Of a DNA stretch of 64,000 bases, positions 3,141 to 56,135 are shown piece by piece. The notes beneath the pieces are model-generated. The model was not told the DNA's origin. It saw only the letters and a program-made list of their open reading frames with translations, and made no database searches. The translations under genes and the position numbers were made by a program. Positions within the stretch are counted from its first letter, which is position 1, and every line of letters begins with the position of its first letter. This DNA is from Lamellibrachia columna (taxonomy: Eukaryota > Annelida > Polychaeta > Sabellida > Siboglinidae): assembly GCA_963662155.1 (NCBI GenBank), contig OY759274.1, forward strand, positions 41,135,842-41,199,841. The letters run 5' to 3'.

Positions 3141-3477
3141 CAGTAGGCAAACTTACCACCACAATATACATTAGATTAGTGTTGATCGTCTCCACTGATC
3201 TATACACGACAGAGATCAGTGATTGTATCTTGCTTGTGTTGCATCCAAGATTATTTCTTGTTACCTGATTAAACTTTGTTGGTGTCTGTTTGTGGTAAGT
3301 TTACTATGTGATTCGTGGTCAAAGAATACTTCAGACCTTTTTAAGACCTACCGATAAAGATGTAATTTTTTATGACCTTTAAAATTGAGAAATCAATATA
3401 TGATTTTTTAAGACTTTTAAAGAATCCCTGGTAACACTGATATAACAAATGTGAACACAAATAAACGAGTCACCTAC

Positions 3478-3689
3478 CTTCCCGCACACTGAAGGGCATG
3501 GTGACGACGCCGTACGCCCCAGGCACGCCGTACAGGCAGCAGATGTAGTCAGAGAGGTAATCAAGGACTGACAGATCGTGCTCCACTACGATGATGTATT
3601 TGTGCTGTACTAATAGACTGCGGATGGCCAGGGCAGCTTTCAGACGTTGCTTCACGTCCAGGTAACTCGACGGTTCATCAAACATGAAG
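3478..3689 (-). CDS. ABCE1: ABCE1 coding exon 7 (Walker B and H-loop of NBD1)
   Basis: 212 nt encoding [20 protein letters not shown], then [19 protein letters not shown], then [12 protein letters not shown]. It holds the Walker B Asp-Glu, the D-loop and the switch His. It ends phase 1 at a GTAGGT donor; the next exon is not in the window. Confidence 0.95.
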
Positions 3690-6600
3690 CTGTAACACAG
3701 GCCATGGGTTAAAACTCCATCCTCTATTGATTTAGTTCATTACAAGTCAGGTTCGGTAATGTTCAAATATGTAGTGTGTTAATATTTTAAGTAATATGCG
3801 CAGTAGGTTTAGTGAGTGTGCACCTTTGTTAAAATCATCAAAAGAATTTACTTTGATCATTAGCTCGGGTAATTTGCGAACGTATGTGCAAAAGTAGGGG
3901 TGAACTGCTTTGCCTGTTTTCTGCAATTTTTTACTGGATCAGGCAAATAAGAATGTAGTGGTTTGTCTGACGATTTCATCAAAGTAACACATTTGTACAA
4001 ACGAACTAGCATGTTGCTGTGGATGTTAGAGTTTGTTCATAAAATGATTCTAAGATGAGACAAGCGAAACAATTAAACCGAGGAAGGAGTTTTAACACAA
4101 CTGTAACAAATGTGTAGTAGACGGGTCGTCAACAGTTTGCAGGCTACAGAAACACTGAAGGTCAAAAAGTATTATTCTCATACATTGTAATATCTCATTA
4201 TTATTGTAAGGAATTCTATCTGCTTCACACACTTGCACTGGCAGACATGTTCATTCAAACCCCTGCCCAGCTTCCCTGGTAACCATTCAGCCATGCTGCA
4301 ATTATTATGAAATAGCTACATAATTCACTGCTTCTGTAATAAGTAAACATATTTCCCCATGAGTATGATAGATCTGTCACTAACAAAAATACAGTCCACG
4401 TATGTACACAATCAAAAACTAAGCAGGGTTAGAATTTTGCGGGGTCCGCATGCCCTCAGACTGACTGCTGGACCCCCAGTAGTTCCAGGTCTAGGGGTCT
4501 GAATGGCTCCTAATAATACAGAAGCAGCTATTTTAATTACAGCTCCTGGGAAGATAGGATCACTGTCAGCTTCTGAAGTGGCACAAGAAGAAAGAATTGT
4601 AGCTAATTACCACATCTAAGACATAGCATATGGTCCAGGCCACCTGCTATTTTGGGCGACTACATAACAGCCAGTGATTGACAGGCAGTTTAAAACACTG
4701 TTACCACAAACAATGTTACCAAACTGTTATTTGAATACACACATCATCTGAATATACACAACATGCCAGCCAGTATTGTAGGGACACAAGGACTCATTTC
4801 AGATTTGCTCAAACCAGATAATAACAGTTACTTGTTTGAAGTGTATCTTTTCATCGTGTGATGCCAAGATATGCCCTTTGCTGTTGCTCACACACATTTG
4901 TGGCTTCGTTTGGAGTTTATAGCAGAATGCAGTTATGCTGCTTGAGGCATTACACCTATTATTACATGGACTTACACCTATTATTACATGGACTTACACC
5001 TATTATTACATGGACTTACACCTATTATTACATGGACTTACACCTATTATTACATGGACTTACACCTATTATTACATGGACTATTACTTACCCAATGTCT
5101 GAATATGACTGGAGGACATTTGGGTATTTATGCATATAACATAATATAACATTGTAATAATTATCTTGGATTTACTTTGCAACGTAAATACATACCATAG
5201 GATAATTAAATCCAATTTTAAGACCTTCAATGCATTCTAAAAACTTGAAGGCTTCAGAACCCCCTGCTAATTTTCACCCGAAAAGAAAAAAATTCATTCT
5301 CATCCGTGGATTTTCATGTCCACCCAATTGGTCATAAATAGCTTTTAAACGCATTAATTTTCACTCGACAGTATACCACATAGGGTCTAAAGTATATGAC
5401 TGGTAGGGTCTAAAGTATATGACTGATAGGGTCTAAAGTATATGACTGATAGGGTCTAAAGTATATGACTGGTGGGACAACTGTTTGAAACGTGAAGCAG
5501 CAGAACAAGTGCACACAATTCAATAACATTAATATTGTGGCTTTTATCATGCAATCTGTATGGCCCCCAGTTTTTGAAGTGGACCCCTAGATTTTGGCAA
5601 AGTGGGGATCCGATTGGCCCCTAATAAATTTAAGCTAAATTCTATCCTTGCTAAGAGATCACTTTATGTGGCGTCCAAATGGCCGAATGTAGATGCAGGT
5701 ACAACTTACATGTCGGCCTTCTGAATGCACACCATGGCGATGGCGAATCTCTGTAGCTCTCCACCAGACAGGTCTTCAATGTTGCGATTACGCACGCCCA
5801 TCAAATCTACATAGCACATAAACAAGTAATACTAATAATAAACTTTTATAGCACCTCAGAAACTGAGCTCAGAGGCACAATAAACCATATTTGTTAAGCA
5901 TAACATCATGAAAAGTCATCACCACCAGGGATTTAGGGTAGAAATACAATTTTTAAAAAGGATGTTTTGAGATTTTTGAGGAAAGTAGCTATAGTTTCAG
6001 ATGATTTCAAAGAGACAAGGAGTTTGATTCAGATGTTCAATGCATCTACAGAGAAAGCACACATGCACAGGTTAAGCTTAGCATTAGCAACAAGTTGTTG
6101 TGAGACAGATGTTCAATGCATCTACAGAGAAAGCACACTTGCACAGGTTAAGCTTAGCATTAGCAACCAGTTGTTGTGAGACAGATGTTCAATGCATCTA
6201 CAGAGAAAGCACACTTGCACAGGTTAAGCTTAGCATTAGCAACAAGTTGTTGTGAGACAGATGTTCAATGCATCTACAGAGAAAGCACACTTGCACAGGT
6301 TAAGCTTAGCATTAGCAACCAGTTGTTGTGAGACAGATGTTCAATGCATCTACAGAGAAAGCACACTTGCACAGGTTAAGCTTAGCATTAGCAACAAGTT
6401 GTTGTGAGACAGATGACCCGAGCTGCCTGGGGATGTTTTAAATATGCAGGAGACTATCCAAGTAGGGTGGTTGTTGTGTAGATAGAGCACGATATGTAAG
6501 AGTAGACAGTTTCAGTTTGATTCGATAGTTAACCAGAAACCAGTACACAGTTGTTATATAACCACCAGGGTTGAAAAAATCATGATTTTTTTTTAATTTA

Positions 6601-9600: not shown

Positions 9601-12600
9601 TCATACACGAGCTTGTGGAGGCGTACTCCAAGGTTGTATTGGTGGTAGTATTGATCGCGCCACTGATATCTATAATTCGCTTGAAGGAGTGGAGTTATAC
9701 ATCATTTGATCACGGTCGAGTATGTATTCGTTGGAAATAATCTTTGGGGTTAGGCTCCACGATTATGCACTCCACCGCTGTCTTATTCATGATGGTGGTC
9801 ACCTCGGCTCTTGAGCGCATTTGCGCTTTTCACATCACAGCAGCCACAAGAACAGCTTACCACAAATCACACTCACCCTTTTATATCAGTACGTGTCTAG
9901 AAATGGCATTCGCACCAGTCCACGAAAGTGAAAATTGCTTATAGCAGGCTTAAGCTACCGAATTGAAATGTCAGTAATACATTTTTTATCATAATTTGGA
10001 CATCCTTAAACACCAGTACCAAGGTTTTTTAGTTCCAATTTTGGTACCAATATTCCACTTGTCCCATAGACTAATAGTGATATGACCAATGTATATGGTT
10101 CTCTGCCAGCCAACAGTTTATATCCAGTGGTTTCAGTATGTGAACAGTTTATATCCAGTGGTTTCAGTGTGTGAACAGTTTATATCCAGTGGTTTCAGTG
10201 TGTGAACAGTTTATATCCAGTGGTTTCAGTGTGTGAACAGTTTATATCCAGTGGTTTCAGTGTGTGAACAGTTTATATCCAGTGGTTTCAGTGTGTGAAC
10301 AGTTTATATCCAGTGGTTTCAGTGTGTGAACAGTTTATATCCAGTGGTTTCAGTGTGTGAACAGTTTATATCCAGTGGTTTCAGTGTGTGAACAGTTTAT
10401 ATCCAGTGGTTTCAGTGTGTGAACAGTTTATATCCAGTGGTTTCAGTGTGTGAACAGTTTATATCCAGTGGTTTCAGTGTGTGAACAGTTTATATCCAGT
10501 GGTTTCAGTGTGTGAACAGTTTATATCCAGTGGTTTCAGTGTGTGAACAGTTTATATCCAGTGGTTTCAGTGTGTGAACAGTTTATATCCAGTGGTTTCA
10601 GTGTGTGAACAGTTTATATCCAGTGGTTTCAGTGTGTGAACAGTTTATATCCAGTGGTTTCAGTGTGTGAACAGTTTATATCCAGTGGTTTCAGTGTGTG
10701 AACAGTTTATATCCAGTGGTTTCAGTGTGTGAACAGTTTATATCCAGTGGTTTCAGTGTGTGAACAGTTTATATCCAGTGGTTTCAGTGTGTGAACAGTT
10801 TATATCCAGTGGTTTCAGTGTGTGAACAGTTTATATCCAGTGGTTTCAGTGTGTGAACAGTTTATATCCAGTGGTTTCAGTGTGTGAACAGTTTATATCC
10901 AGTGGTTTCAGTGTGTGAACAGTTTATATCCAGTGGTTTCAGTGTGTGAACAGTTTATATCCAGTGGTTTCAGTGTGTGAACAGTTTATATCCAGTGGTT
11001 TCAGTGTGTGAACAGTTTATATCCAGTGGTTTCAGTGTGTGAACAGTTTATATCCAGTGGTTTCAGTGTGTGAACAGTTTATATCCAGTGGTTTCAGTGT
11101 GTGAACAGTTTATATCCAGTGGTTTCAGTGTGTGAACAGTTTATATCCAGTGGTTTCAGTGTGTGAACAGTTTATATCCAGTGGTTTCAGTGTGTGAACA
11201 GTTTATATCCAGTGGTTTCAGTGTGTGAACAGTTTATATCCAGTGGTTTCAGTGTGTGAACAGTTTATATCCAGTGGTTTCAGTGTGTGAACAGTTTATA
11301 TCCAGTGGTTTCAGTATGTGAACAGTTTATATCCAGTGGTTTCAGTGTGTGAACAGTTTATATCCAGTGGTTTCAGTATGTGAACAGTTTATATCCAGTG
11401 GTTTCAGTGTGTGAACAGTTTATATCCAGTGGTTTCAGTGTGTGAACAGTTTATATCCAGTGGTTTCAGTGTGTGAACAGTTTATATCCAGTGGTTTCAG
11501 TGTGTGAACAGTTTATATCCAGTGGTTTCAGTGTGTGAACAGTTTATATCCAGTGGTTTCAGTGTGTGAACAGTTTATATCCAGTGGTTTCAGTGTGTGA
11601 ACAGTTTATATCCAGTGGTTTCAGTGTGTGAACAGTTTATATCCAGTGGTTTCAGTGTGTGAACAGTTTATATCCAGTGGTTTCAGTGTGTGAACAGTTT
11701 ATATCCAGTGGTTTCAGTGTGTGAACAGTTTATATCCAGTGGTTTCAGTGTGTGAACAGTTTATATCCAGTGGTTTCAGTGTGTGAACAGTTTATATCCA
11801 GTGGTTTCAGTGTGTGAACAGTTTATATCCAGTGGTTTCAGTGTGTGAACAGTTTATATCCAGTGGTTTCAGTGTGTGAACAGTTTATATCCAGTGGTTT
11901 CAGTGTGTGAACAGTTTATATCCAGTGGTTTCAGTGTGTGAACAGTTTATATCCAGTGGTTTCAGTGTGTGAACAGTTTATATCCAGTGGTTTCAGTGTG
12001 TGAACAGTTTATATCCAGTGGTTTCAGTGTGTGAACAGTTTATATCCAGTGGTTTCAGTGTGTGAACAGTTTATATCCAGTGGTTTCAGTGTGTGAACAG
12101 TTTATATCCAGTGGTTTCAGTGTGTGAACAGTTTATATCCAGTGGTTTCAGTGTGTGAACAGTTTATATCCAGTGGTTTCAGTGTGTGAACAGTTTATAT
12201 CCAGTGGTTTCAGTGTGTGAACAGTTTATATCCAGTGGTTTCAGTGTGTGAACAGTTTATATCCAGTGGTTTCAGTGTGTGAACAGTTTATATCCAGTGG
12301 TTTCAGTGTGTGAACAGTTTATATCCAGTGGTTTCAGTGTGTGAACAGTTTATATCCAGTGGTTTCAGTGTGTGAACAGTTTATATCCAGTGGTTTCAGT
12401 GTGTGAACAGTTTATATCCAGTGGTTTCAGTGTGTGAACAGTTTATATCCAGTGGTTTCAGTGTGTGAACAGTTTATATCCAGTGGTTTCAGTGTGTGAA
12501 CAGTTTATATCCAGTGGTTTCAGTGTGTGAACAGTTTATATCCAGTGGTTTCAGTGTGTGAACAGTTTATATCCAGTGGTTTCAGTGTGTGAACAGTTTA

Positions 12601-15600
12601 TATCCAGTGGTTTCAGTGTGTGAACAGTTTATATCCAGTGGTTTCAGTGTGTGAACAGTTTATATCCAGTGGTTTCAGTGTGTGAACAGTTTATATCCAG
12701 TGGTTTCAGTGTGTGAACAGTTTATATCCAGTGGTTTCAGTGTGTGAACAGTTTATATCCAGTGGTTTCAGTGTGTGAACAGTTTATATCCAGTGGTTTC
12801 AGTATGTGAACAGTTTATATCCAGTGGTTTCAGTGTGTGAACAGTTTATATCCAGTGGTTTCAGTATGTGAACAGTTTATATCCAGTGGTTTCAGTGTGT
12901 GAACAGTTTATATCCAGTGGTTTCAGTGTGTGAACAGTTTATATCCAGTGGTTTCAGTGTGTGAACAGTTTATATCCAGTGGTTTCAGTGTGTGAACAGT
13001 TTATATCCAGTGGTTTCAGTGTGTGAACAGTTTATATCCAGTGGTTTCAGTGTGTGAACAGTTTATATCCAGTGGTTTCAGTGTGTGAACAGTTTATATC
13101 CAGTGGTTTCAGTGTGTGAACAGTTTATATCCAGTGGTTTCAGTGTGTGAACAGTTTATATCCAGTGGTTTCAGTATGTGAACAGTTTATATCCAGTGGT
13201 TTCAGTGTGTGAACAGTTTATATCCAGTGGTTTCAGTGTGTGAACAGTTTATATCCAGTGGTTTCAGTGTGTGAACAGTTTATATCCAGTGGTTTCAGTA
13301 TGTGAACAGTTTATATCCAGTGGTTTCAGTATGTGAACAGTTTATATCCAGTGGTTTCAGTATGTGAACAGTTTATATCCAGTGGTTTCAGTGTGTGAAC
13401 AGTTTATATCCAGTGGTTTCAGTGTGTGAACAGTTTATATCCAGTGGTTTCAGTATGTGAACAGTTTATATCCAATGGTTTCAGTATGTGAACAGTTTAT
13501 ATCCAGTGGTTTCAGTGTGTGAACAGTTTATATCCAGTGGTTTCAGTATGTGAACAGTTTATATCCAGTGGTTTCAGTGTGTGAACAGTTTATATCCAGT
13601 GGTTTCAGTATGTGAACAGTTTATATCCAATGGTTTCAGTATGTGAACAGTTTATATCCAGTGGTTTCAGTATGTGAACAGTTTATATCCAGTGGTTTCA
13701 GTGTGTGAACAGTTTATATCCAGTGGTTTCAGTGTGTGAACAGTTTATATCCAGTGGTTTCAGTGTGTGAACAGTTTATATCCAGTGGTTTCAGTATGTG
13801 AACAGTTTATATCCAGTGGTTTCAGTATGTGAACAGTTTATATCCAGTGGTTTCAGTGTGTGAACAGTTTATATCCAGTGGTTTCAGTATGTGAACAGTT
13901 TATATCCAGTGGTTTCAGTATGTGAACAGCAGTGACAGTTCACATCATTAGCGACTGTAAATGATCTCTTTGTAGGGAATCTATAGGGATGTCTACCACA
14001 TCAAAGTGATGTGGAAATATTCTTTTTTAGCAAACATAAATTTTATTATTTCTCAATTAATATATTCTCAAATAAATATGATAAGTAATTTGTCCAACTG
14101 TACAGTCTGATAAATTTTTCCCCGGACTCCCCAAAACTATCCACATAACACTTAACAAGTATTTTTATTCAGCATAAAAATTAATAACCTGAACTGCTGT
14201 TGAATTAACACATACTTCTACTGTATTTGTTATGTGGACTGACTCCAGAAGTTTTCTTTATGCAAAGTTATTACCATTAACCTTCACAGCCACCAGTAAA
14301 ACATCACAGTATCCACTGCCAAGCAATGCACTGTGCCTTCAGGGTGACTGAATGCTATTTTCTCCCCACCAACCACCCTAAAGTTATTGCCATGTCAGCA
14401 AGTAGAACAAGAGGAAGTTCATTGTAAGCATAATTCATGCAGACAACATCTGGCAACAAATTCCCATACACAGCAGGATGTGTCTAACAGGTGATGGCTC
14501 TGATATAACCAGTTTCCTGAAGCAAGGATTACAACACTCTGGTCTGCAGAGATATAAACACACAAGTTTATCGGCGTAGTTTTGTGGACACAACTTGATG
14601 GAGGGCAGCTTAATCCCATTTTATGGACATTTCTAACAACACTTTATGTGGACATTTCTGACAGAACAAACTGTGAGATTTTGTGATTTCTGAGGACAAA
14701 GATATCTACCCCAGCGCATCATGGCAATATCCACCACTTGGGTGCTTCTACTATTTGTGATGTATGAAGCATGTATGCCAACTCGGGCCAGGACTCCTGA
14801 CATATATACACCAGTAGGTAAGTTGCAGTTTAAATTTTACAAGATGGCATATATTTATTGTTAATATTAAAAGCACAATAAATTAATAAAATAACTACCA
14901 AACTACTAAATTAACTATCAAAATATTATGAACAACTCATGTTGAAATAATTATTTTGACATATCCAAAACTTGTTTTTACAGTGTAGAAATTTTCATCG
15001 TCTTATCAAGGCGACTATTTTGTGGAAGAGATTTTAAAATGGGTTTAATTTAGGAACATGGTTGAAGAGATTTAGAATCGAGATGATTCAGAATCCTACT
15101 ATGGCCATTGGAATCAGAGTATAGTATTTACACAACAAATATGAGTACATTATACTGATTTTATAATAAAGAAAACGATATCTGGATCATAACCAACTGT
15201 GGAAGATGCATATTTCATACAAGTTCAACCATACAAGAGTAAGTTCATATACAACGCTGTATCCAGTCAAAGCGTGTTACACTTCACCCCTGGCACCTGT
15301 TCATTCCAACACTACTCTGTGAAGCATTCAGCCACACCGCAATTACTATACAAAGACTTCTCATTAATTTATATCCACAACCACCTATAGCCAGGTACTC
15401 ATTTACAGTTGAGTGAACTGAGGCAATTCAGAGGGAACAAAATTGTCCAAGCTTTAAACTGGCAGTAAGAGGATTCAAATTCTGGTCATCTCAAACAAGA
15501 GTCCAATGGTCTAATCACTCTGCCACTTCAACAATTAAATTATACCACAACAATATGAGTAATAGTATATTTTTGTTGACCTGTCACATTTGTCACCATA

Positions 15601-18600
15601 CACTATTTTGGCACGCAGCGCCTGTATGACACATGCTGCGAGCCAAACAGTCTCTGGTGAAACTTCCTCTTCTAAAGCTTGTTTTTAGTTACAATATCCT
15701 GGTGGAATTCACTTCCTTGTAAAAAGAACTGGACCAATTAAATGGAATAAAAACAATGATTGGTTGAAATCATATTATATTACATCTTGCAGTATATTTC
15801 CATTTCTCCAATCCTGAAACTTTCATTAGAATTCAATTAATACTTCGAAATAAAATTGTCCTGCCTCGATTATGCACATTTTTTCGCAGTTACTGATAAG
15901 CTTCGATGTGACATCACTGGCGACAGTTGTTTAGATTAGAAGCAAGTGTTAGAATGGTTTAATATGTGGTATTCGGTTGTAATGCAAAGAGTAGTAAAAA
16001 ATAAAGTAGCATGCAGTTCAGTGCCCCATGCAGCCAACTTAGTTAAGAACTGGCTCAAGAAAATGATGGCTTCAAACTTAAACCCAACGAAGCACAAACT
16101 TGTTTCGCCCACGACCCAGAGAAGACCTGGTGGTAAAATATCTTTGAAAGAGAATGTTGTACCAATATTATTCCCAGTAGTGGAAGCTGCATTGATGTCA
16201 TCATCAGTGACATGGGAAGCGATGATTATGTCGCTCGGATCGAACGCAAGCACACTACGCAAACGGACTGCATGTCACCGTCAATGCGATCGTTTACTTT
16301 CTGACATAACCATCATACGACCAACTAGAGCTGCCAAACTTCTCATATATCTACCATACATATATACATGTCACGTTGACAATTTTTTTTACAAAACTAA
16401 AACTGTAATTTTTTATCATTATGTGGAAGAGTAATTTTTACCACGTGATATGTGTACATGTATTTTAGATATATTAGGAGAAGCTTGGCGGCTCTATGTG
16501 GTGGTTTTCATAGTTTCATAGAAAGTAAATAAGAACGAGGCCAAAGGCTACTGGTGTTGCTAAACTGCTCCGAAAGAGCTGAATTCGAAGATGATTCTGC
16601 GGTATCACTTGGCTCTAGCGGTTTGAAATCTTTATACTTTATTCCGGGACATCGCCACCACATGAAACAGTAGGGCGAGTGAAACTGTGCTAAAGCAGTG
16701 CATAGAAATCACTGACTAAATGTAAACCCATGTCATCAGTGACGTCACAAAATCATTTGATTGCTCATCTCATTAACTTCGGATTTTACGCACACTTTGC
16801 GAGTAGACGCACTATAAAACATTTAGTTTTAAGTGCAACATTTCACACGGCCACGGGCAAACATGTGTTTACTTTTATCAGGTGCACTACTGCGCATATA
16901 CACAACACAATGACAGTTACATTTCAATCCAAGTTAACACGGATTTATTTACTTTACTTTTGAATTTCACACGGGCATGGAGGGTTTTCACACAGGCAAA
17001 TTGCCCGTGTGAAAGGCCTTAAAAAACCTGCATACAACATTAAACTTTGTGTGCACAATGAAAAAGCATTTTAGCTAGTGCTTTGTTGTTAGTGCCTTTA
17101 ACTAGGCAAGCTGCCTCTGTTACTTCCTGCTGTATATTCCTAGTTGTGTTCATGTAGAAACACAAGTAACATATTGAATGATTAGACAAAGGATGGACAG
17201 AGGGAGGGAGGAACAGAGCTAGGGAGGGGAGGGGAGGGGGGAGGGATGGAGGGGAAGATGGAAGGGGAGGTGGGGGAGGCGGAAATGGGGTCTAGAGAGG
17301 GGAAGATGGATGGATGTGAGAGACAGACTGAGAAGGGGGAGATAATTACAACATGAATATGATTTTATGAACTTTACTGTGCTTCGATTAAATGACTTCT
17401 ACCTCTATTGAACACACAGGAAACCTTGCTGGTTTGAATTGTTCCACCACATCACACATTCATGAATGACACGGTTGTTTTAAATTACAGCAAGATGCAT
17501 CCTTTCTTTTTGCAGACAACCCTACAAGCTGCTGCTACAACAGGCAATCTATCACACTGAAATGTCAAAACACACACACCATTCATTTAAAGGCTGCAAC
17601 GTTTGGAACAAGTCAACCACAGTGTCAGAATAACAGGAGATGCTGTCCTGAAAGAACTGACTTCAGATCCGCTGTACAATCATACCAGATGCAGGAAATG
17701 AAGAAAAGATGTGACGGAACCCACAAATGTATTATACCTGGGGTCTGGAGCCAATGTTCCATTGGATATGCCGATTATTTACACATTCACTACACATGTA
17801 GAATCAAAGTCAAAGGTAGGCTAATGCTACATTGTTAACATACCAATTTTAATGCATATGTACATCATAAGAAACAACTTTCCGTAACTAAAGCATAGAC
17901 AGCAAGATTTTTCAAACACCCCAGTTTAGTTTGATTTCCACTTGCAAGAGTGTAAACACCAAAACAACTCTTAAAAAACACAGTTTATTAAATACACTGC
18001 TTAAACTCTAACACTAGATCTGTTCTGTTTGCAGTGGCCTATGGCTGTTGGCCAAAAAATGTGGGATTTAACCTGCGCTGTCCAAAAAACCAGGGTATTT
18101 ACATACAGTCTGCAACGTTGGGAGTAAGTTATAAACACTGCTGGAGGGAATGTTGTCGATCAGTGTACGACTGCAGAGTTTCTGCATCAAGATCACACAT
18201 GCAATACCTGAGGAATCGGTGTCACGGCAGTCAAGAATGTCATGTAACAGTTGCAAGGCAGAACTGCAAACGGATGCAAGTTGACTATGAATCAGTTACC
18301 TACACCTGTAATGCCATCATCCCAGGTAAGTTACTAGTACTTTGGCTGTTGCAAAATTAGCATTATTATCACAAACAAAAACATCCACAATCTGTTAGTA
18401 AGCTTTCTAATTAAACCAAATGTTTAAATTTTGGCTCACATTTCACCAGTGTACCAATGTCAGAATAAACCAGCCAAATGAGCCATGTGGTCAAACGGAA
18501 TGTAATTACAAGTTACGGACCAGATCTACAGCCAACGGAACAGCTACTGCAGCCAGAACCACAATTGTTGCAGCTACAACCACAACTGTTGCGGCCACAA

Positions 18601-21600
18601 CCACAACCGTAGCAGCCATAACAGCCGATACAACCACAACTGTCACTTTGACAACACCAAGTACAACAGAGGGCAGCACTGTTGGCAGCCCTGTCGAAGT
18701 CACCAGCATGACATCTAGTGAAGGCAGCATTAGAAGCACGACACAAGTTTCCACAGACAACACAACCAACAGCCACAAGACTATTGGTAAGAATTAAACC
18801 AATATTAGTAAAGGAGACCAAATAACAGTCAACGAAATAAAACCCCATGTTATTGATTTTTTTTAATATTGTTGTCATAAACAATGAACAGACTTAAGAA
18901 CTTGTGATGACACTATATTTAGAAGCTGACCTTATTTAGTTTTAACATTTGAGATAAATTTATGACATTGTATATGCTACATACATGTAAATACACAACA
19001 TCGGAACCAGATATTTTTACTTTTTAATGGGTTTATAATAATATTTTATGGAGCAGTCTTTTCTTGCAAACTCCGGCCATGTTTCTAAAAAAAAAATTCT
19101 TCAAGGCCAACAGAATAATTTTTTGGGGTTACAAATTTGTGGTCACTGTGCTGTTTGTATAACCTCGAATAACGGCATAATCAATTTGTCATGAGAAGTC
19201 TCACTGATCACATATATTAATTATTCAGTGGTCATAACAGGCAGGTTACTATATGCATGAGGTGTGCCAGTATCAATGTGCTGTTGTTGCAGCTCTTATA
19301 GTGGGTCTGACAACAGCACTGTGCATTGTAGTCATCGCTGCTCTTACAGTCATCATAGTTTACAAGAGGTATGTAAGCATTCATCTATCTCACAAAAATT
19401 TGTCTTCCTAAATTTAAACTTAACCTCATCAAGCGCGCTTTTTCTCTAGCCGCACCCAGAATCTGAGACAAACTCCCCATCACCTTTAATTCTTGTGAAA
19501 CTGTAGATACCTTCGTCAAAAAACTCAAGAAATATTTTTAATCAGCATTTCCACTTTAAGTGGAGATATGGCAGCTAGAATGTTTTTTTTTTAAACTACT
19601 CAAAATGTGTGTCCTCCTTATTTCAATAGCTTTGTATGTTTACCATCAATAAAGTTCACTTTCATAACAATAATTTATAACAATGACATATCTCAAAATT
19701 AGCTTTATTCATGGATAAAGCTTGCATCTATCATGTAATCAATGCCATCATTCAATCTTTGGTGCTCCCTTGCTCTGAAGACTGTTGTATGTCCCTGTTC
19801 ATGATGTCATGCTTAACAATTCTGATTTGCCATGCCTGGTCACTGGTTCCTGAGGGACTAGATGCTATACAAGTTTTATTATTATTGTTCTAGATACATT
19901 TACTATATACAGTTTGTGCTACATGACAGCAGCATGTGTTTTACATTGTACACCTACCGCACATCAAATTGTAGTCATCACATATTAAATGTATGCATTC
20001 ATAACACTTATTTATCAGTGTCTATTTGGTTTCAATTTCACTGCATGTTTTCAGTGGTTTTATTTTTGACTCCTCTAGATTAGGTAAATATATGGACTAC
20101 AGACCCTCTGTACAGAAGTATTTTGAGGTACCTTTAAATGTAATAAGGCATGCGAGTGCATGACACGTTTTATAACATGCAATATACTGCAATGACTAGC
20201 ACCAGAATTGAGGACATTGGAGAACATGTGCCAAATACTCTACCATAACGTACTTTATTCACCAGATGCAGATGTTCAGCCAGCTATCCCTCCCTGGAAA
20301 GTCAGACTACGAGTCCACAGATCAACTTGTATGACATCCCTGTCACCAACCAATCACCCGTATCTGTGACAAATCTCTACGATGTCGCTGCATACACAGA
20401 CCCATATGACAACGCAATTGTCAATCCTGACCGCAACATGCAGCCAGTGGCTCTATCTGGTGACACAAGCGTGACACCACCAAACATTGAAGCATCGTCA
20501 AATGCATCACTCAATGACTTATACATCAGACCAAACAAGCAGAGGAAACGTCAAAATGTCTCCAAAGATGACCCTCATTATGACAACGTATTTGGGCCTG
20601 TAATGGCTGGAGGGATGGGGACTGGAGGGATGGGGGCTGGAAGGATGGGGGCTGGAGGGATCGGGGCTGGAAGGATGGGGGCTGGAAGGATGGGGGCTGG
20701 AAGGATGGGGGCTGGAAGGATGGGGGCTGGAGGGATGGGGGCTGGAGGGATCGAGGCTGGAGGGATGGGGGCTGGAGGGATGGGGGCTGGAAGAATGGGG
20801 GCTGGAGGGATCGGGGCTGGAGGGATCGGGGCTGGAGGGATCGGGGCTGGAGGGATCGGGGCTGGAGAGATGGGGGCTGGAGCACTGGGAGTTCGGTTGT
20901 CAGTCGCAGCAAGTGAAGACGTCACCTACACAGAGATTGATCACACTGGGGTGGATGGGGGCAGATCATGGGTCAGGTCAACAGGGGTCATCTACGCCGA
21001 GATCCAGCCAGAGAGGAATGGGAATGCACCAGATGGAAAAGGGTGGGAAGAATCCCAGGAAACCCCTGGTGACACCGACATGACTATGGTCGAAAATGAC
21101 CTTTATGAAACTCAGTGATACCTTCACTGGTGCGGGGTGAGGTGGGGCTGTGTGATAGGGCGACAGACTGTCACACAGCCCCACCTCGACCCACACCAGT
21201 GAAGGTGACGGACTGTCAGTCTGTCTTTCGGACAAGACACTAAAACTTGTTGTTCCCTCCTACCTGGTCTCTATGGTATGACAGGGGAATTAAAAGACTG
21301 AACCTTCACTGATGAAGCATGGTACATTTGAGGATATTATTCATACATAGAGCAGTGATGAGAATTAAAATATCAACTTCCCATTAGTTTGTTGTTAGAT
21401 TACTAAGCGGCCTCATACTAAGTCACATTATCCACAGAGGTTTCAGTATGTGAACAGCAGTGAGAGTTCAAATCATTGGCCACACTGGTTCATCTTTTCA
21501 AGCAGCTTTCTGAATAAAGTCACATTTTAACTCACTTTAAATTCCTCTACATAACTGTAGACATTATGGCAAGAATACCCTGATTCCATAGCACTCATAG

Positions 21601-24600
21601 GTTGCCAACATTCAGTTAGAAGTGCCAAATAGTGTCTGATTTATAAACGACATGGATACTCTGTTTGCCCACTACCGGCCCTATGGGTGACAGTTTAACT
21701 ACTGATTTAATATCAGTCAATAATACCGTTATTTACTAAGAGTAGCCTCATATTCAGACATTTTAAATCCACAGTACAGTAGTTTCAGTGTGAGTTCAAA
21801 TCATTGGCTACTTTTTAAATTCATATCCAGAATATTCAAACTGTTTATTGTGAACAACAAAACTATTTAAATCATGATGTACCTACACACAGCAGGTGTC
21901 GACTCTCTGCGGAAATGACACCCCTACGACCATCAAGGTCACCATGTACACCATTTTACAACTGCTTTGTAAAATTATAAAAACAAAGTCTCATCAAAAC
22001 AAGTTATGGAAATTGAGTTACATACTACAATAATGGTAACCTTTAAGGTAGCTGGGGCGGCTAGCGTGTCAGTTGATTTGTTCATTTTTTTCATAACATG
22101 CTAGGAAATATTGAACTGAACATCGACGCCACAAATAATCAGCCGGCACTAACGTCATATTTCGCCAAACCATCTTTTTAAAAAAAACAGTCCTTTTCGA
22201 AATCCCCATGATTTCTTACAAACACTGACAATGTTTCCATAATAACGACCGCGAGTGCTACGATGTTCAAACCAGCTATATTCGTTCGCCGTGAAAGTGG
22301 AACATACCATGTGGTTACTGTGATTCCCCTTCACTGGTGTGGGGCGAGGTGGGGCTGTGTGATAGGGCGACAGACTGTCACACAGCCCCACCTCGACCCA
22401 CACCAGTGAAGGTGACGGACTGTCAGTCTGTCTTTCGGACAAGACACTAAAACTTGTTGTTCCCTCCTACCTGGTCTCTATGGTATGACAGGGGAATTAA
22501 AAGACTGAACCTTCACTGATGAAGCATGGTACATTTGAGGATATTATTCATACATAGAGCAGTGATGAGAATTAAAATATCAACTTCCCATTAGTTTGTT
22601 GTTAGATTACTAAGCGGCCTCATACTAAGTCACATTATCCACAGAGGTTTCAGTATGTGAACAGCAGTGAGAGTTCAAATCATTGGCCACACTGGTTCAT
22701 CTTTTCAAGCAGCTTTCTGAATAAAGTCACATTTTAACTCACTTTAAATTCCTCTACATAACTGTAGACATTATGGCAAGAATACCCTGATTCCATAGCA
22801 CTCATAGGTTGCCAACATTCAGTTAGAAGTGCCAAATAGTGTCTGATTTATAAACGACATGGATACTCTGTTTGCCCACTACCGGCCCTATGGGTGACAG
22901 TTTAACTACTGATTTAATATCAGTCAATAATACCGTTATTTACTAAGAGTAGCCTCATATTCAGACATTTTAAATCCACAGTACAGTAGTTTCAGTGTGA
23001 GTTCAAATCATTGGCTACTTTTTAAATTCATATCCAGAATATTCAAACTGTTTATTGTGAACAACAAAACTATTTAAATCATGATGTACCTACACACAGC
23101 AGGTGTCGACTCTCTGCGGAAATGACACCCCTACGACCATCAAGGTCACCATGTACACCATTTTACAACTGCTTTGTAAAATTATAAAAACAAAGTCTCA
23201 TCAAAACAAGTTATGGAAATTGAGTTACATACTACAATAATGGTAACCTTTAAGGTAGCTGGGGCGGCTAGCATGTCAGTTGATTTGTTCATTTTTTTCA
23301 TAACATGCTAGGAAATATTGAACTGAACATCGACGCCACAAATAATCAGCCGGCACTAACGTCATATTTCGCCAAACCATCTTTTAAAAAAAAACAGTCC
23401 TTTTCGAAATCCCCATGATTTCTTACAAACACTGACAATGTTTCCATAATAACGACCGCGAGTGCTACGATGTTCAAACCAGCTATATTCGTTCGCCGTG
23501 AAAGTGGAACATACCATGTGGTTACTGTGATTCCCCTTCACTGGTGTGGGACGAGGTGGGGCTGTGTGATAGGGCGACGGACTGTCACACAGCCACACCT
23601 CGACCCACACCAGTGAAGGTGATGGACTGTCAGTCTGTCTTTCGGACAAGACACTAAAACTTGTTGTTCCCTCCTACCTGGTCTCTATGGTATGACAGGG
23701 GAATTAAAAGACTGAACCTTCACTGATGAAGCATGGTACATTTGAGGATATTATTCATACATAGAGCAGTGATGAGAATTAAAATATCAACTTCCCATTA
23801 GTTTGTTGTTAGATTACTAAGCAGCCTCATACTAAGTCACATTATCCACAGAGGTTTCAGTATGTGAACAGCAGTGAGAGTTCAAATCATTGGCCACACT
23901 GGTTCATCTTTTCAAGCAGCTTTCTGAATAAAGTCACATTTTAACTCACTTTAAATTCCTCTACATAACTGTAGACATTATGGCAAGAATACCCTGATTC
24001 CATAGCACTCATAGGTTGCCAACATTCAGTTAGAAGTGCCAAATAGTGTCTGATTTATAAACGACATGGATACTCTGTTTGCCCACTACCGGCCCTATGG
24101 GTGACAGTTTAACTACTGATTTAATATCAGTCAATAATACCGTTATTTACTAAGAGTAGCCTCATATTCAGACATTTTAAATCCACAGTACAGTAGTTTC
24201 AGTGTGAGTTCAAATCATTGGCTACTTTTTAAATTCATATCCAGAATATTCAAACTGTTTATTGTGAACAACAAAACTATTTAAATCATGATGTACCTAC
24301 ACACAGCAGGTGTCGACTCTCTGCGGAAATGACACCCCTACGACCATCAAGGTCACCATGTACACCATTTTACAACTGCTTTGTAAAATTATAAAAACAA
24401 AGTCTCATCAAAACAAGTTATGGAAATTGAGTTACATACTACAATAATGGTAACCTTTAAGGTAGCTGGGGCGGCTAGCGTGTCAGTTGATTTGTTCATT
24501 TTTTTCATAACATGCTAGGAAATATTGAACTGAACATCGACGCCACAAATAATCAGCCGGCACTAACGTCATATTTCGCCAAACCATCTTTTTAAAAAAA

Positions 24601-27600
24601 ACAGTCCTTTTCGAAATCCCCATGATTTCTTACAAACACTGACAATGTTTCCATAATAACGACCGCGAGTGCTACGATGTTCAAACCAGCTATATTCGTT
24701 CGCCGTGAAAGTGGAACATACCATGTGGTTACTGTGATTCCCCTTCACTGGTGTGGGGCGAGGTGGGGCTGTGTGATAGGGCGACGGACTGTCACACAGC
24801 CACACCTCGACCCACACCAGTGAAGGTGATGGACTGTCAGTCTGTCTTTCGGACAAGACACTAAAACTTGTTGTTCCCTCCTACCTGGTCTCTATGGTAT
24901 GACAGGGGAATTAAAAGACTGAACCTTCACTGATGAAGCATGGTACATTTGAGGATATTATTCATACATAGAGCAGTGATGAGAATTAAAATATCAACTT
25001 CCCATTAGTTTGTTGTTAGATTACTAAGCAGCCTCATACTAAGTCACATTATCCACAGAGGTTTCAGTATGTGAACAGCAGTGAGAGTTCAAATCATTGG
25101 CCACACTGGTTCATCTTTTCAAGCAGCTTTCTGAATAAAGTCACATTTTAACTCACTTTAAATTCCTCTACATAACTGTAGACATTATGGCAAGAATACC
25201 CTGATTCCATAGCACTCATAGGTTGCCAACATTCAGTTAGAAGTGCCAAATAGTGTCTGATTTATAAACGACATGGATACTCTGTTTGCCCACTACCGGC
25301 CCTATGGGTGACAGTTTAACTACTGATTTAATATCAGTCAATAATACCGTTATTTACTAAGAGTAGCCTCATATTCAGACATTTTAAATCCACAGTACAG
25401 TAGTTTCAGGGTGAGTTCAAATCATTGGCTACTTTTTAAATTCATATCCAGAATATTCAAACTGTTTATTGTGAACAACAAAACTATTTCAATCATGATG
25501 TACTCCAATTGCACAAATCTAAGCTGACCGACCCTGCTACACACAGCAGAAGGCGTCGACTCTGCGGAAATGACACCCCTACGACCATCAAGGTCAAGAG
25601 GTGAAGGTGAACTCCAAACTATGTACATCATTTTACAACTGCTTTGTAAAATTATAAAAACAAAGTCTCATCAAAACAATTTATGGAAATTGAGTTACAT
25701 ACTACAATAATGGTAACCTTTAAGGTAGCTAGGGCGGCTAGCGTGTTAGTTGATTTGTTAATTTTTTTCATAACATGCTAGGAAATACTGAACTGAACAT
25801 CGACACCACAAATAATCAGCCGGCACTAACGTCATATTTCGCCAAACCATCTTTTTAAAAAAAAACAGTCCTTTTCGAAATCCCCATGATTTCTTACAAA
25901 CACTGACAATGTTTTCATAATAACGACCGCGAGTGCTACGATGTTCAAACCAGCTATATTCGTTCGCCGTGAAAGTGGAACATACCGTGTGGTTACTGTG
26001 ATTCCCCTTCACTGGTGTGGGGCGAGGTGGGGCTGTGTGATAGGGCGACGGACTGTCACACAGCCACACCTCGACCCACACCAGTGAAGGTGATGGACTG
26101 TCAGTCTGTCTTTCGGACAAGACACTAAAACTTGTTGTTCCCTCCTACCTGGTCTCTATGGTATGACAGGGGAATTAAAAGACTGAACCTTCACTGATGA
26201 AGCATGGTACATTTGAGGATATTATTCATACATAGAGCAGTGATGAGAATTAAAATATCAACTTCCCATTAGTTTGTTGTTAGATTACTAAGCGGCCTCA
26301 TACTAAGTCACATTATCCACAGAGGTTTCAGTATGTGAACAGCAGTGAGAGTTCAAATCATTGGCCACACTGGTTCATCTTTTCAAGCAACTTTCTGAAT
26401 AAAGTCACATTTTAACTCACTTTAAATTCCTCTACATAACTGTTGACATTATGGCAAGAATACCCTGATTCCATAGCACTCATAGGTTGCCAACATTCAG
26501 TTAGAAGTGCCAAATAGTGTCTGATTTATAAACGACATGGATACTCTGTTTGCCCACTACCGGCCCTATGGGTGACAGTTTAACTACTGATTTAATATCA
26601 ATCAATAATACCGTTATTTACTAAGAGTAGCCTCATATTCAGACATTTTAAATCCACAGTACAGTAGTTTCAGTGTGAGTTCAAATCATTGGCTACTTTT
26701 TAAATTCATATCCAGAATATTCAAACTGTTTATTGTGAACAACAAAACTATTTAAATCATGATGTACCTACACACAGCAGGTGTCGACTCTCTGCGGAAA
26801 TGACACCCCTACGACCATCAAGGTCACCATGTACACCATTTTACAACTGCTTTGTAAAATTATAAAAACAAAGTCTCATCAAAACAAGTTATGGAAATTG
26901 AGTTACATACTACAATAATGGTAACCTTTAAGGTAGCTGGGGCGGCTAGCGTGTCAGTTGATTTGTTCATTTTTTTCATAACATGCTAGGAAATATTGAA
27001 CTGAACATCGACGCCACAAATAATCAGCCGGCACTAACGTCATATTTCGCCAAACCATCTTTTAAAAAAAAAACAGTCCTTTTCGAAATCCCCATGATTT
27101 CTTACAAACACTGACAATGTTTCCATAATAACGACCGCGAGTGCTACGATGTTCAAACCAGCTATATTCGTTCGCCGTGAAAGTGGAACATACCGTGTGG
27201 TTACTGTGATTCCAGTACACATCAGTATTATATCTACCTAACTAAATCATGTCCTTAAACCAGCAAATATCAGCGTGGTTACTGTGATTCCAGTACACAT
27301 CAGTATTATATCTACCTAACTAAATCATGTCCTTAAACCTGCAAATATCAGCGCGAATGTAGTTTATTGTGCCTCTGAACCTACAAGTTATAATAACGGA
27401 AACGGCCTGCGATCCTGACCTGGGGACCTCGCCGGGTAACATGCAATCAAAATGATCGTAAACACGCCCTGCCACGTGTTTGTCAGATGGCTAGCATAAC
27501 CTGATATCGTAGACGACAACATGTTACAAATACAGATTCAAGGACCATTGTGGCAGCAAATTAAAGGGACATGTCAATATTACAAATGGCCATCATGTTT

Positions 27601-30600
27601 TGTCAACAATACGTAAAATGCCAGTGAAAATTGTCACATTTCAAGCATGATACATGCATCTATCGGCATTTCTGTTATCACTAACAATCAGGAAACGTTA
27701 CCTAATTCAATTTTTTTTTAAACTACAACACTTACGACGCTGCAATTAGGCGTATGAACGTATCTTACATAAAGGCAACTTTACACAGTTTGGAATTACG
27801 ATTGGTGAAGGGTTTGTGTCAAAAATACACTACCACTTTAGGCCGTCATCCAACTTTTGCTTAATTCATTCACAGGTGGTGTAGCAGACGTAATTCGTTT
27901 ATGCTAACCAAAATCAATCTTAAAGTTATCAGTGAGTCAGTGACACTGTCATACTTAGATATATATATATAATTTCTTTCTTTGGGGATTTTCTCAAAAC
28001 AATTTAATTTCACATTTTGTGGCTATTTTTTCACATTTACAATTTTTATTTTAATCTTGTAACAGAACCAAATAAATAAAAATGAAAAAAATTAATTTTT
28101 TTTTATTAATCTGGAATATTATATGGTATTTCAACTACAATCTATGAAGAAATAGTTAATTTATTTTTAAAACTTCTACTGAAACTACTCAATTCAAGAC
28201 AAGCATATAATAGGCACCCCAGTTACTTCAACTACTGATTATTTGTCAATAATACAGTTATTTACTAAGAGTAGCCTCATATTCAGACATGTTAAATCCA
28301 CAGTAGAGTAGTTTCAGTGTGAGTTTAAATCATTGGTTCACACCCACAATATTCATTGTGTTTAACTCAAACTGTTTACATTTTAATGTGAACTACAAAA
28401 CTGTATTTAAATTAAGATGAACTCCAAACTATGTACACCATTTTACAACTGCCTCATAAAATTAAAAAAATTAAGTCTTATCAAAACAATTTAATGAAAT
28501 TGAGTTACATACTACAATAATGGTAACTTTTTAACCATTGATTATCTGTCAATACAGTTATTTACTAAGAGTAGCCTCATATTCAGACATTTTAAATCCA
28601 CAGTACAGTAGTTTCAGTGTGAGTTCAAATCATTGGCTACTTTTTTATTCATAATCCACAATTATTCTCTTTTCAAGAAATTCCCCAGATACCCGTTTCT
28701 TCCAGAAATTACCCAAAACCTTTCTCTTCCAGAAATATCCCAGAAACCTTTCTCTTCGAGAAATTCCCCAGAAACCTGTCTTGACGAAAAATCCAAGAGA
28801 ATGCTCAAGAAATTCTACAAAAACCCATCTTTTCCATTTACATGAAGCATTTTAGCTACCGAATCAGTACTGATTATATCAAATACAAACAAACAAACAT
28901 ACAGCAGCCTCATACTAAGACATGATATCCTCAGGTCATTCGGTATGTGAACAGCAGTAAGAGTTTAAATCATTGGCCACTCTTCCTTCCAAAATTCATT
29001 CAAACTACGTCTGGCATAATCTACTACCAGACAACTGACACTAACCTTGATGGCTCGGGGGATCTGGTCGACGTACTGTGGCTTGATGATGGCCTTCATG
29101 TCGTCTTCAAGGATCTTGGTGAAGTAGTTCTGTAGTTCGGAGCCGCGGAAGTGAGTGAGGATCTCCGTCCAGTCCGGTGGGTCCTGAACCAATGCAACCA
29201 CATCATTTCACCATCTGGCAGAGACATCATCTAAGTTTGATTAGTATAGCAGATTTCGACATGATGGAAATAATTTTTTTTTATTTTACACAAGTCCCTG
29301 ACAAAGTCCATCTATCATGGCTCAATTAAGTGTATTTAGTCACCTGATATTTGTCTTAAGAAGCACTTACATTGTACATGCCTGAAACTGTAATGAACCC
29401 ATGTAATCAACTAGAACTTTTTCTAATCTATCGTTGTTGTCATGACTATTAAGCAGCCTCATACTAAGACAAGTTATCCACAGTAGGTTCAGTATGTGAA
29501 CAGCAGTGAGAGTTCAAATCATTGGCCACTTATTGATCTCTTCAACTTGTTTTTTTTTTAAAACCTCACTTTAAGTTCTTGCCCAAGATTGAAAAGGTCA
29601 GATACGGTCTGTTGAAAACAAGTATTATTTGAACAGTCAATGACATGAACAGTTCTCACATTAGTTATCTCTCAGAACACTGGATTGATGAAATCCATTG
29701 CACACGATATCGTGTCAAGCAGGATCTGTTCTATTGTAAGCGACGCCATGTCAAACAGGATCAGTTCTATTGCAAGCGACGTCATATGAAACAGGATCAG
29801 TTCTATTCCAAGCAACGTCGTGTCAAACAGGATCAGTTCTATTGCAAGCGACGTCATATGAAACAGGATCAGTTCTATTGCAAGCGACGTCGTGTCAAAC
29901 AGGATCTGTTCTATTGCACAAGACATCGTATCAAACAGGATCAGTTCTACTGTAAGCGACGTCGCTACAAGGAGTCGCGACGATGTAGTCTCCACAGGAT
30001 GAAACAAGTTGCAATCTGTTCGCATACGACGGCACTGACTTGGCGTGCCAACGATATCGCCTCGTGTAAACCCAGTTTTAAGTCCCAGCAAATGTGACAG
30101 TAACATTCAAGTCACAGTAAATGAGTTCTTCTGTCACTGAGTCCATTCAACCATCTCACTTTGTCTCAAATAGTGCATACCTTCTACGTGCCTCACCTTC
30201 TACGTGCCTCAAACTAGGTAAGGTAAGGTAAAGTCATTCCCCAGGCATTACGCCTTAGGAAGCCATGAAGGCTTATATGGCCAGTGCTTAAACCTGGTTT
30301 CTGTAGTGCGAAGCAACTTAAGAGTGTAGTTATACTGACTCTCCTGGACGGGACACTAGTCCATCGCAGCCTCAAACTAGAGTTTGATTAAACAGGGCTG
30401 CCTACTTCACCAAAGCAAATTCCGTAGATTGAAATGCACTTTGGTAATTTAGATAACGTCTGCAGAAAGCAAATATTATTTCAGCAATCATGATTTAAAA
30501 TAGTTGTTCACTACACTGCACTACTAGAAACTAGAGAGGGTCATACATCAAGACATAATCTAACCCTCTCCCTCGCCGAATTCCCAACATGGCATGAAAC

Positions 30601-38001: not shown

Positions 38002-39016
38002 GTGTTGTTTAACAAGATTTGCCATCCAAGCCAAAGGCCCAGATGGCAAGTGGACAAGGAAGCCATTGGCTTATCGAGAGTCCAACAATGTTCATCTACT
38101 TATAACCCGCCCTCCTGAGATATGTGTCAACCTTGTTTTTAAACATATTCACGCTGCTAGCTGTTACACAATCTGTAGACAATTTGTTCCATTCATTTAT
38201 TGTCCTCTGTGAGAACGAGTGCTTCCTGATGTCCAATCTACATTGATCCTTTACTAATTTTACCTCATGTCCTCTAGTTCTGCTATCCTTCTTGAGTGAG
38301 AAAAACATATTTCTATCAATATTTTCATACCCATTCAATATCTTAAAAACTTCAATCTGATCTCCTCTTAACCTCCTTGTCTCTAGAGTTGTTAAACCAC
38401 ATTCTTTCAGGCGTTCTTCATAACTAAGGTCTCTCAGTTCTGGAATAATTTTAGTTGCTCTCCTTTGTATGCGTTCAAGCGTATCTATATCCTTCTTACG
38501 ATTTGGTCTCCATGCTTGTATACAGTATTCTAAATGAGGTCTAACTATTGCTTTATAAAGAGGTATAATTAACTTTTTTCCCTTGTATGTTATGTTTCTT
38601 CTAATCAATCCAAGAATTTGATTACCCTTTGAAGCTGCAATACCACCCTGCTCTGAAACTTTCATATCAGCGCTTATTGTAACTCCTAAGTCCTTTTCTT
38701 TTACAGTAGTACCCAGAACAGTATCTCCCATTTTATAGTTTACATTCAAGTTACTTGTTATACCTGTATGTAGGCATTTACATTTCCCAAAATTGAACAA
38801 CATCTGCCATTTCTCAGACCATTTCACTAATCTGTCTAGATCGTTTTGTAAATGTTGTTTATCACCATCAGTATTAACCTTTCTAAACAGTTTTGTGTCA
38901 TCCACAAATTTCAGTACGTTACTTGTTATACTGTCGTCCAAGTCATTGATATAAATTAAGAATAATATAGGTCCTAATACTGATCCTTGAGGTACCCCAC
39001 TCAAAACCGATTTCCA
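38002..39016 (-). mobile_element. CR1-like LINE, 5'-truncated, with 8-bp target duplication
   Basis: One uninterrupted minus-strand frame of about 300 codons (38096-39004) starts inside the [30 protein letters not shown] (catalytic DD kept), NKLSTDCVTASSVNMFKNKV, ending RRAGYK. It is flanked by TTGTTACT on both sides (37994-38001 and 39017-39024), and the uninterrupted left arm of the inverted repeat shows the empty site. This is a recent, 5'-truncated insertion; endonuclease and ORF1 are missing. Confidence 0.95.
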
Positions 39017-39476
39017 TTGTTACTAAGGTTATGCAATGCTATTACTATTTAGATAAGATATGTGTATGTGTGACTGCATGTGTTGACCGTTTCGCCTGAA
39101 ATGAAAATAAGTAGGCCAATTCGTTTGCCTCTAAAGGGGTGCGCTTTGCCCCACCCTACTCTACAGTACAGTAATAAACACAAGGATCTAGGTTTAACAC
39201 ACATCTATCTCCAACAATTATATTAAAACTTTGTGTTTTGCAACAACTCTACTGCATTACAGCGCCGTGCGCTAACAATGATAAGAAGGACGACGTTATA
39301 CCATTGTACGTGGGTTTTATATACAGCGCATGGTCTAGATACATTATATACATATGACACTCACAAAGGGAAAAATAATGTATCTTATCCCACGCAAAAC
39401 ACTAATTATTAGTATTGGTAGACGGAAAGCAAGTGAAGTAGTAAATATAGGTAGTCGTATGAGCATCACAATATAA

Positions 39477-54759: not shown

Positions 54760-56135
54760 ACAATAATTTTTATATTTTGTTTTGAAATTGTTTACTGTTA
54801 ATGCATTGACACAGTCGCTTGGTAAGGTATTCCATGGCTTGATTACTCGCTGTGAAAAGAACTTGTGGCGTGCATATAGTCGGCTGTGGTGTCGTACTAT
54901 TGACTTGTGTTTTCCTGGACGGGGGTATGGTTTAGCTCGAATATTCTCTTGGTGTCTTTGTCAGTAAATCCATTAATAATCTTGAAAACTTCGAATATAT
55001 CAGCCCTTTTCCCCCTATCTTGCAGAGACAGCAGGCCACACTTTCGCAATATTAGATAATATGGGAGCTTAGAGATTCCAGTGATCATCTTAATGGCTCT
55101 CCTCTGCACACTTTCTGATTTGTCTATATCTTTCTGAAGATATGGGCACCATGCCTTTTGGCAGTTTCTGATGACGGGTAGGACCAAGGTGACGTATAAT
55201 TGTTTGATGTTTTTCATGCTTTTGTCTGTGTAGATCCTACGAATTGTCCTTAGTATTCTATTTGCTTTCTCGACTACGTAGTTTACTTGCTCCTTTACTT
55301 TCAGTGATTTATGTATGTGTACTCCTAGGTCTTTCTCCATATCTATCGATTCTATACGTTCATTTCCCATAACATAGTGGTAGTTCAGTTGGTTGTATCC
55401 AATGTGCAGGCATTTGCATTTAGTGAAGTTGAACAATAGCTGCCAATCCTGACTCCATTTATACATAGAATGGAGGTCTTCCTGGAGAGTGAAAGCGTAT
55501 TCAACCTCAGAAACTTGCCTCAATGTTTTCGTGTCATCAGCAAACTTCAACAGGGGGCTTACTACAGACGAGTCAATGTCGTTTATAAAGATAACAAATA
55601 ACATTGGGCCAAGTATTGATCCCTGTGGTACACCACTGATCACTTTTTGCCAATCTGACTCCACACCACTTATGCACACTCATTGTCTTCCATCTGTTAG
55701 CCAACTTTCAATCCATCTGTTGGTCTTGCCCACAATGCCATGAGTGGTTAATTTTGAGATGAGTCTGTGATGAGGGACTATATCAAACGGTTTACTGAAA
55801 TCCAAGTAGATCACATCGACTGGATATCCTTTGTCAATATAAGAAGTAATTTCTTCGAGAAACATTAGCAGATTACTAAGACTTTTTACTAGGATTCTTT
55901 TTGGTCTGAAATCATGTCGTGAGTCTAGAATCAGCTTGTGTTGTTTGATACGTTCATATATGGATTCTAGAATGAAGAACTCCATCACCTTGCATACTTG
56001 TAAATTTAAGCTAAGTGGTCAGTAGTTTTCTGGCTTGGAATGGTGTCCTTTCTTGTATATCGGAATGGCATTTGCATCAAGCCAGTCTTGTGGTACCTGC
56101 CCACTTTGAAAGCTCTTTGTAAACAGTGCATTCAA
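54760..56135 (-). mobile_element. CR1-like LINE, second family, long degraded RT
   Basis: The minus strand carries, in order, RKLILDSRHDFRPKR-region text, VDVIYLDFSKPFDIVPHHRL, ISGVPQGSILGPMLFVIFIN, LKFADDTKTLRQ (FADD box), CKCLHIGYNQLNYHYVMG, EKDLGVHIHKSLKVKEQVN, ESVQRRAIKMITG and ADIFEVFKIINGFTDKD. A stop after the first RT block (near 55679) and further decay at the 3' end show it is inactive. Distinct from subfamily 1. Confidence 0.9.

Follow-up and report, generated by a model that had tools for sequence, protein, structure and literature searches.

The window analysed here is a stretch of 64,000 nucleotides from the tubeworm Lamellibrachia columna (contig C14, positions 41135842-41199841, in an assembly of 880 Mb and 30 contigs). 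It contains a plus-strand gene whose six exons, within 14721-21118, encode a predicted receptor of 609 amino acids with, in order, a signal peptide (recognized by eye), two divergent SUEL domains, a threonine-rich stalk, a membrane helix and a cytoplasmic tail. All exon junctions are GT-AG and in frame, with phases 1,1,1,1,2. The gene is flanked by minus-strand exons of ABCE1 at 3470-3736 (E 1.9e-48) and 30560-30832 (E 2.5e-44). An earlier note on this DNA had described a nested six-exon receptor; the nesting is confirmed by the ABCE1 exons on either side, and the receptor holds up as a gene model predicted from sequence.

Exon 1 (14721-14817) carries the start codon and the signal peptide, is preceded by an in-frame stop 5' of the ATG and ends in phase 1 at a gtaagt donor; it was modelled from the window alone. 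Exons 2 (17516-17815) and 3 (18035-18325), both phase 1 to 1, each hold one SUEL domain: the first matches PF02140 by itself at 24.5 bits (E 3.6e-5) and resembles the SUEL-like exons of two paralogous loci, L030 and L031, and the second scores 20.4 bits (E 6.9e-4) and matches the same two loci by tblastn with a best E of 1e-13. The stalk is encoded by exon 4 (18574-18786, phase 1 to 1, an open frame), the membrane helix by exon 5 (19293-19368, phase 1 to 2; L030 and L031 have corresponding helix exons), and the tail and stop codon by exon 6 (20266-21118), which has relatives among database proteins (P0002-P0009) and in the worm's own genome. Hydropathy places one helix, in exon 5, as had been proposed: among the 19-residue windows, the 14 with the highest hydrophobicity lie in that helix and its neighbours.

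Several acceptors are available for exon 4. The site at 18450 has the best pyrimidine tract yet meets a stop codon roughly 10 codons on, and that at 18464 is out of phase; both were set aside on frame. Starts at 18532, 18544, 18553 and 18574 keep the frame, and 18574 is preferred because L030 and L031 have a phase-1 TTGCAG acceptor at the corresponding place; L030 also has an additional phase-compatible acceptor upstream of it. The Pfam scan was run on a 623-residue version starting at 18532, which differs from the 609-residue model by 14 stalk residues. A match to AJAP1/PANP (E 0.002, 18.9 bits against a cut-off of 27) was put down to stalk composition.

The two SUEL-like domains read by eye in the earlier note were recovered by profile search: PF02140 (SUEL_Lectin, also called Gal_Lectin) matches the whole protein twice (E 3.5e-7), at 30.9 bits, just below the curated cut-off of 31.4. 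Searched against the PDB, a profile built from the two domains picks out the rhamnose-binding lectin CSL3 (E 2.1e-6), as well as latrophilins, and one built from seven family domains picks out the rhamnose-binding lectin 5h4s at E 8.7e-11; when these seven were scanned singly, six had a PF02140 match at E up to 1. The assignment to the SUEL fold is sound, but the domains are divergent: a genome-wide PF02140 search returned 78 places, none within the three places that hold the receptor family. Protein searches with the SUEL part gave no matches; an AlphaFold model of the two SUEL exons reached a mean pLDDT of 48. Elsewhere on the same contig (C14:32622355-32646397, minus strand), 18 SUEL exon matches of near-equal score, spaced by about 1.4 kb, form a large tandem SUEL array.

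The receptor belongs to a multigene family. A genome search with the tail relative P0004 gave 35 tail matches, comprising two in the window gene, 19 on contig C6 (24.17-24.25 Mb) and 14 on contig C11 (12 at 41.93-42.05 Mb and two near 43.42 Mb). A search with the window SUEL pair found 26 places, two in the window, eight on C6 (24.18-24.23 Mb) and 16 on C11 (41.92-42.06 Mb), with no match near 43.42 Mb on C11; both sets were counted exon by exon and are lower bounds. All 26 SUEL-pair matches lie in the three places that hold tails. L030 has two SUEL-like exons and L031 three, followed in each by threonine-rich, helix and tail exons, and the junction phases inspected agree. The SUEL domains and the tail are taken as one protein mainly because this exon order recurs in L030 and L031. 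An intact tail end was found in 10 fetched loci, which with the window make 11 loci; the other copies are broken or partial. At 41.921, 42.025, 42.034 and 42.062 Mb on C11, the family SUEL exons are followed by no listed tail match in the next 10 kb of their strand; these four loci possibly encode receptors with other tails, or soluble forms. A further locus (L018:3-368, read on the minus strand) encodes a variant family tail with one AVSYTEI site and an MVENDLY end.

Outside this genome, the nearest named tail relative is LSAT2_029744, a hypothetical protein from the vestimentiferan Lamellibrachia satsuma, and P0002, from L. satsuma, is the only sure cross-species orthologue. An assignment of P0003-P0009 to another species was dropped: P0003, P0008 and P0009 match loci of the window's genome exactly, which shows that at least these three derive from this species or one very near to it. 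Scans of genome-contig and viral-contig collections with the tail alignment found no relative.

The tail contains the two immunoreceptor tyrosine-based inhibitory motif (ITIM)-like sites that had been noticed from the sequence, VTYTEI (site 1, 20921-20938) and VIYAEI (site 2, 20987-21004), with their tyrosines 22 residues apart; the spacing is 25 or 26 in the other loci. Both sites are kept in all loci with an intact tail end, site 1 as [LV]xY[VT]xI in 11 of 11 loci and site 2 as [VI]xYAE[IVL] in the same 11 and in P0002-P0009, and the L. satsuma orthologue has both. Upstream, at 20516-20533, DLYIRP forms a YxxP site followed by NKQR; the YxxP is present in 10 of 11 loci, and the ratio of nonsynonymous to synonymous differences (pN/pS) of the block DLYxxPNKQR is 0.18. 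Of the LYDIP and LYIRP sites pointed out earlier, LYxxP thus recurs in 10 of the 11 loci, but LYDIP is not kept in distant family tails. Between the YxxP block and site 1 lies a 15-bp tandem repeat (20605-20882, Tandem Repeats Finder) that encodes a spacer rich in glycine, alanine and methionine and is far shorter in the alignment of the L. satsuma orthologue. Near the C-terminus, VENDLY (21089-21106) is the most constrained of the elements measured, with VEN[DE]LY and its conserved tyrosine in 11 of 11 loci at a pN/pS of 0.03; the family tails finish one to three residues after it. Each of the 11 tails has 7 to 16 tyrosines.

According to published work, the N-terminal SH2 domain (N-SH2) of human SHP2 prefers (I/L/V)-x-pY-(T/V/A)-x-(I/V/L) (PMC12151841) and its C-terminal SH2 domain (C-SH2) prefers (T/V/I)-x-pY-A-x-x/I (PMC12151841; PMC12878756). 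Site 1 fits the N-SH2 preference, and site 2, with V/I at -2, A at +1 and I/V/L at +3, fits both. The pattern [ILV]xY[TVA]x[ILV], taken from the human N-SH2 preference (PMC12151841) and applied with the window sites already known, has exactly two matches in each of 12 tails (the 11 loci and L. satsuma). Shuffled tails average 0.02-0.08 matches, with two or more in 0 to 0.3% of 5000 shuffles, and in 0.16% for the window tail with its glycine repeat removed. A loose ITIM pattern is weak by itself, as 7.6% of shuffled window tails have at least two.

Across all pairs of the 11 loci, the two sites have a pN/pS of 0.20, against 0.55 for the remainder of the aligned C-terminal part, figures that come from non-independent pairs with large pS (0.5-0.7) and carry no significance values. 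Between the window and L. satsuma tails, 72 of 75 C-terminal residues are identical, as are 91 of 111 before the repeat. The tail evolves in the way expected of a switch that recruits SHP.

Candidate loci for the presumed effector, a tandem-SH2 phosphatase, are present in the receptor's own genome. Each of four tandem SHP-like loci at 57.92-58.03 Mb on contig C7 (L038-L043) has two SH2 exons and, after them on their strand, one or more phosphatase exons; the SH2 exons were read in all four and the phosphatase stretches in two. Two of the four are almost identical in the parts read, a possible recent or assembly duplication. When the SH2 exons of a copy are joined, human PTPN11 is a better match than PTPN6, with E 4e-82 and 1e-75 for the two copies compared.

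These observations suggest a multigene family of single-pass receptors that carry two or three divergent SUEL-fold domains on the outside and, within the cell, a phosphotyrosine switch; we put the probability of this reading, with the working proposed below, at roughly two in three. A ligand, more likely a protein or another surface than free rhamnose or galactose, would cluster the receptor, and a Src-type kinase would phosphorylate both sites of the tail. An SHP-type phosphatase would then bind through its tandem SH2 domains, N-SH2 taking site 1 and C-SH2 taking site 2, an arrangement in keeping with the report that head-to-tail double sites with a suitable linker give the best SHP2 activation (PMC10231330). 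Binding would open the phosphatase at the membrane and damp neighbouring tyrosine-kinase signalling. We infer the phosphorylation, SHP binding, inhibitory sign, cell type and ligand. The inhibitory or tunable SHP-type receptor of the earlier note is supported as far as domain order, paired motifs, their conservation in paralogues and one orthologue, and the four SHP-like loci go; an inhibitory sign would be a further step.

Several points weigh against this model. SHP2 often promotes signalling instead of damping it. The exon order was read in two paralogues only, from SUEL to tail exons, and the junction of exons 3 and 4 uses a weak acceptor that the paralogues alone support. P0006, from another assembly, lacks the hydrophobic residue at +3 of site 1, so that only site 2 of the pair is kept. 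In a display screen, wild-type human N-SH2 disfavoured Glu at +2, which both window sites have, and favoured large hydrophobic residues at +1 (PMC10369915). With the T42A form of SHP2 the preference is for Val at -2, Ala at +1 and Glu at +2, and Lys55 is linked in part to the Glu preference (PMC10369915). In one SHP-like copy, L042, Ala stands in place of human Thr42 but Arg in place of Lys55, which is no more than a lead.

The lectin-like domains themselves bear on what the receptor would sense. In mouse latrophilin-1, rhamnose is contacted by Glu42 (one residue past the first Cys), Tyr63, Gly117 and Lys120, and substitutions of Glu42 or Lys120, conservative ones included, strongly cut or abolished binding (PMC2430599); CSL3 employs residues matching these contacts (PMC3269628). 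Ten family SUEL domains were examined (two each from the window, L030 and L035, three from L031 and one from L034). None has the Glu past the first Cys, a Cys that one L035 domain itself lacks, and the loop-2 Lys position is occupied by Asp in eight, Asn in one and Glu in one. Nine SUEL domains from loci L001-L008 of the same genome keep the Lys in all nine cases and the Glu in five, a comparison biased towards canonical domains since these loci are the best PF02140 scorers. Because both canonical residues are missing in all ten family domains, canonical binding of rhamnose or galactose is unlikely, and the domains have probably lost the usual sugar-binding site.

The proposal that the receptor senses rhamnose or galactose glycans through its SUEL domains, which the earlier note had favoured and which concerns the ligand and would fit either reading of the tail, is not borne out by these residues. 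The fold, as assigned from sequence, does speak for it, and a non-canonical glycan site is conceivable; set against the missing Glu and Lys, the biased L001-L008 control and the latrophilin-1 substitutions, we regard it as distinctly improbable. Less probable still is that the SUEL and tail exons belong to separate products, that the window copy yields mainly a soluble two-SUEL protein through acceptor 18450, or that this copy is decaying. The early stop behind that best-looking acceptor would suit such a view, as would the L. satsuma gene model P0002, which begins within the stalk and has no SUEL domains. It is opposed by the exon order, phases and phase-1 acceptor shared with L030 and L031, by the co-location of SUEL and tail matches in three places, and by the strong conservation of the window tail in L. 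satsuma. Elsewhere in the genome, some copies are broken.

The most serious competitor, in our view still an unlikely one, is an activating or scaffolding dock, in which the YxxP site and other tyrosines would recruit Crk/Grb2-type adaptors and SHP would promote signalling, in adhesion, guidance or engulfment. The many tyrosines of each tail agree with this, and both the YxxP block and VENDLY are under constraint, the latter more than the ITIM-like sites. SHP-2 is required for ERK activation below growth factor receptors (PMC6823243), and a guidance receptor, EVA-1, has the same two-SUEL plan (PMC2430599). What opposes a dock of this kind is the presence, in 12 of 12 tails, of two SHP-type sites whose order and range of spacing are those of paired inhibitory motifs, an arrangement that does not by itself decide the sign.

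Among known systems, EVA-1/EVA1C (C21orf63) is likewise a single-pass protein with two extracellular SUEL (rhamnose-binding lectin) domains, although one family paralogue has three. In its C-terminal SUEL domain both the Glu and the Lys needed for binding are absent, and in the N-terminal one Asp replaces the Glu; the protein acts as a Slit coreceptor (PMC2430599) and interacts with MADD-4, together with UNC-40 (PMC4133157). Unlike EVA-1, the window protein has no FAM176 (PF14851) match at E up to 1 and has a threonine-rich stalk and tyrosine tail instead. A separate EVA-1-like locus is present at C10:11498214-11519058, with SUEL matches at 11.498 and 11.515 Mb followed by FAM176 at C10:11518870.

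Tyrosine motifs in Siglecs are spaced by about 20-26 residues. Like Siglecs, PD-1 and other paired-ITIM proteins of vertebrates, the tubeworm protein is a predicted membrane receptor whose tail holds, towards its C-terminal end, two SHP-type sites at a spacing of this order. It differs from them in having no Ig family match (Pfam, E up to 1), where Siglecs have a V-set Ig domain that binds sialic acid, in its SUEL ectodomain and in being invertebrate. The paired tyrosines of PD-1 are Y223 and Y248 (PMC12151841). The description "built like a Siglec" therefore applies just to the tail; for the ectodomain, an arrangement of two SUEL domains with a single membrane pass was already known from EVA-1/C21orf63 (PMC2430599). 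Rhamnose-binding lectins and latrophilin share the SUEL fold by profile, but the family lacks the canonical Glu and Lys and combines a single pass with a phosphotyrosine-type tail. The oyster receptors CgCLec-TM1 and CgCLec-HTM are also invertebrate lectin-type receptors with a tail tyrosine motif, but have a C-type lectin domain and an activating hemITAM or non-classical ITAM (Syk) (PMC13027682), in contrast to the SUEL-type domains and paired SHP-type sites of the tubeworm. The receptor is neither a Siglec nor an EVA-1. Searches of open-licence papers, judged by titles and the abstracts shown, turned up no SUEL receptor with ITIM-type motifs, in line with the earlier note, which named no family with this architecture.

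Other features of the window surround the gene. A satellite array with a 62-bp period (10112-13929) lies just 5' of it, and direct repeats of about 1.2 kb with inverted-repeat pieces (about 21120-26400) begin right past its stop codon. A TRIM-NHL-type gene at 40919-43313 matches RING, B-box, filamin and NHL, and LINE-type reverse-transcriptase fragments occur on the minus strand at 38096-39019 and 54897-55679.

In vertebrates, paired motifs that recruit SHP are characteristic of inhibitory immune receptors, and this worm is related to gutless, symbiont-bearing tubeworms. Tentatively, and against the odds as we judge them, chemosymbiotic tubeworms may have evolved their own SHP-coupled inhibitory receptors, independent of Ig- and C-type-lectin receptors, in the form of a clustered, fast-evolving SUEL family in three genome places alongside four tandem SHP-type loci (one with Ala at Thr42), and these may set tolerance to bacterial symbionts. 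The finding corrects the easy equation of a SUEL domain with sugar sensing. If the proposal were true, the same conserved motif pair under a degenerate lectin fold would point to convergent building of checkpoint-like receptors, and how the worm restrains its immunity towards its symbionts would become a directly testable question.

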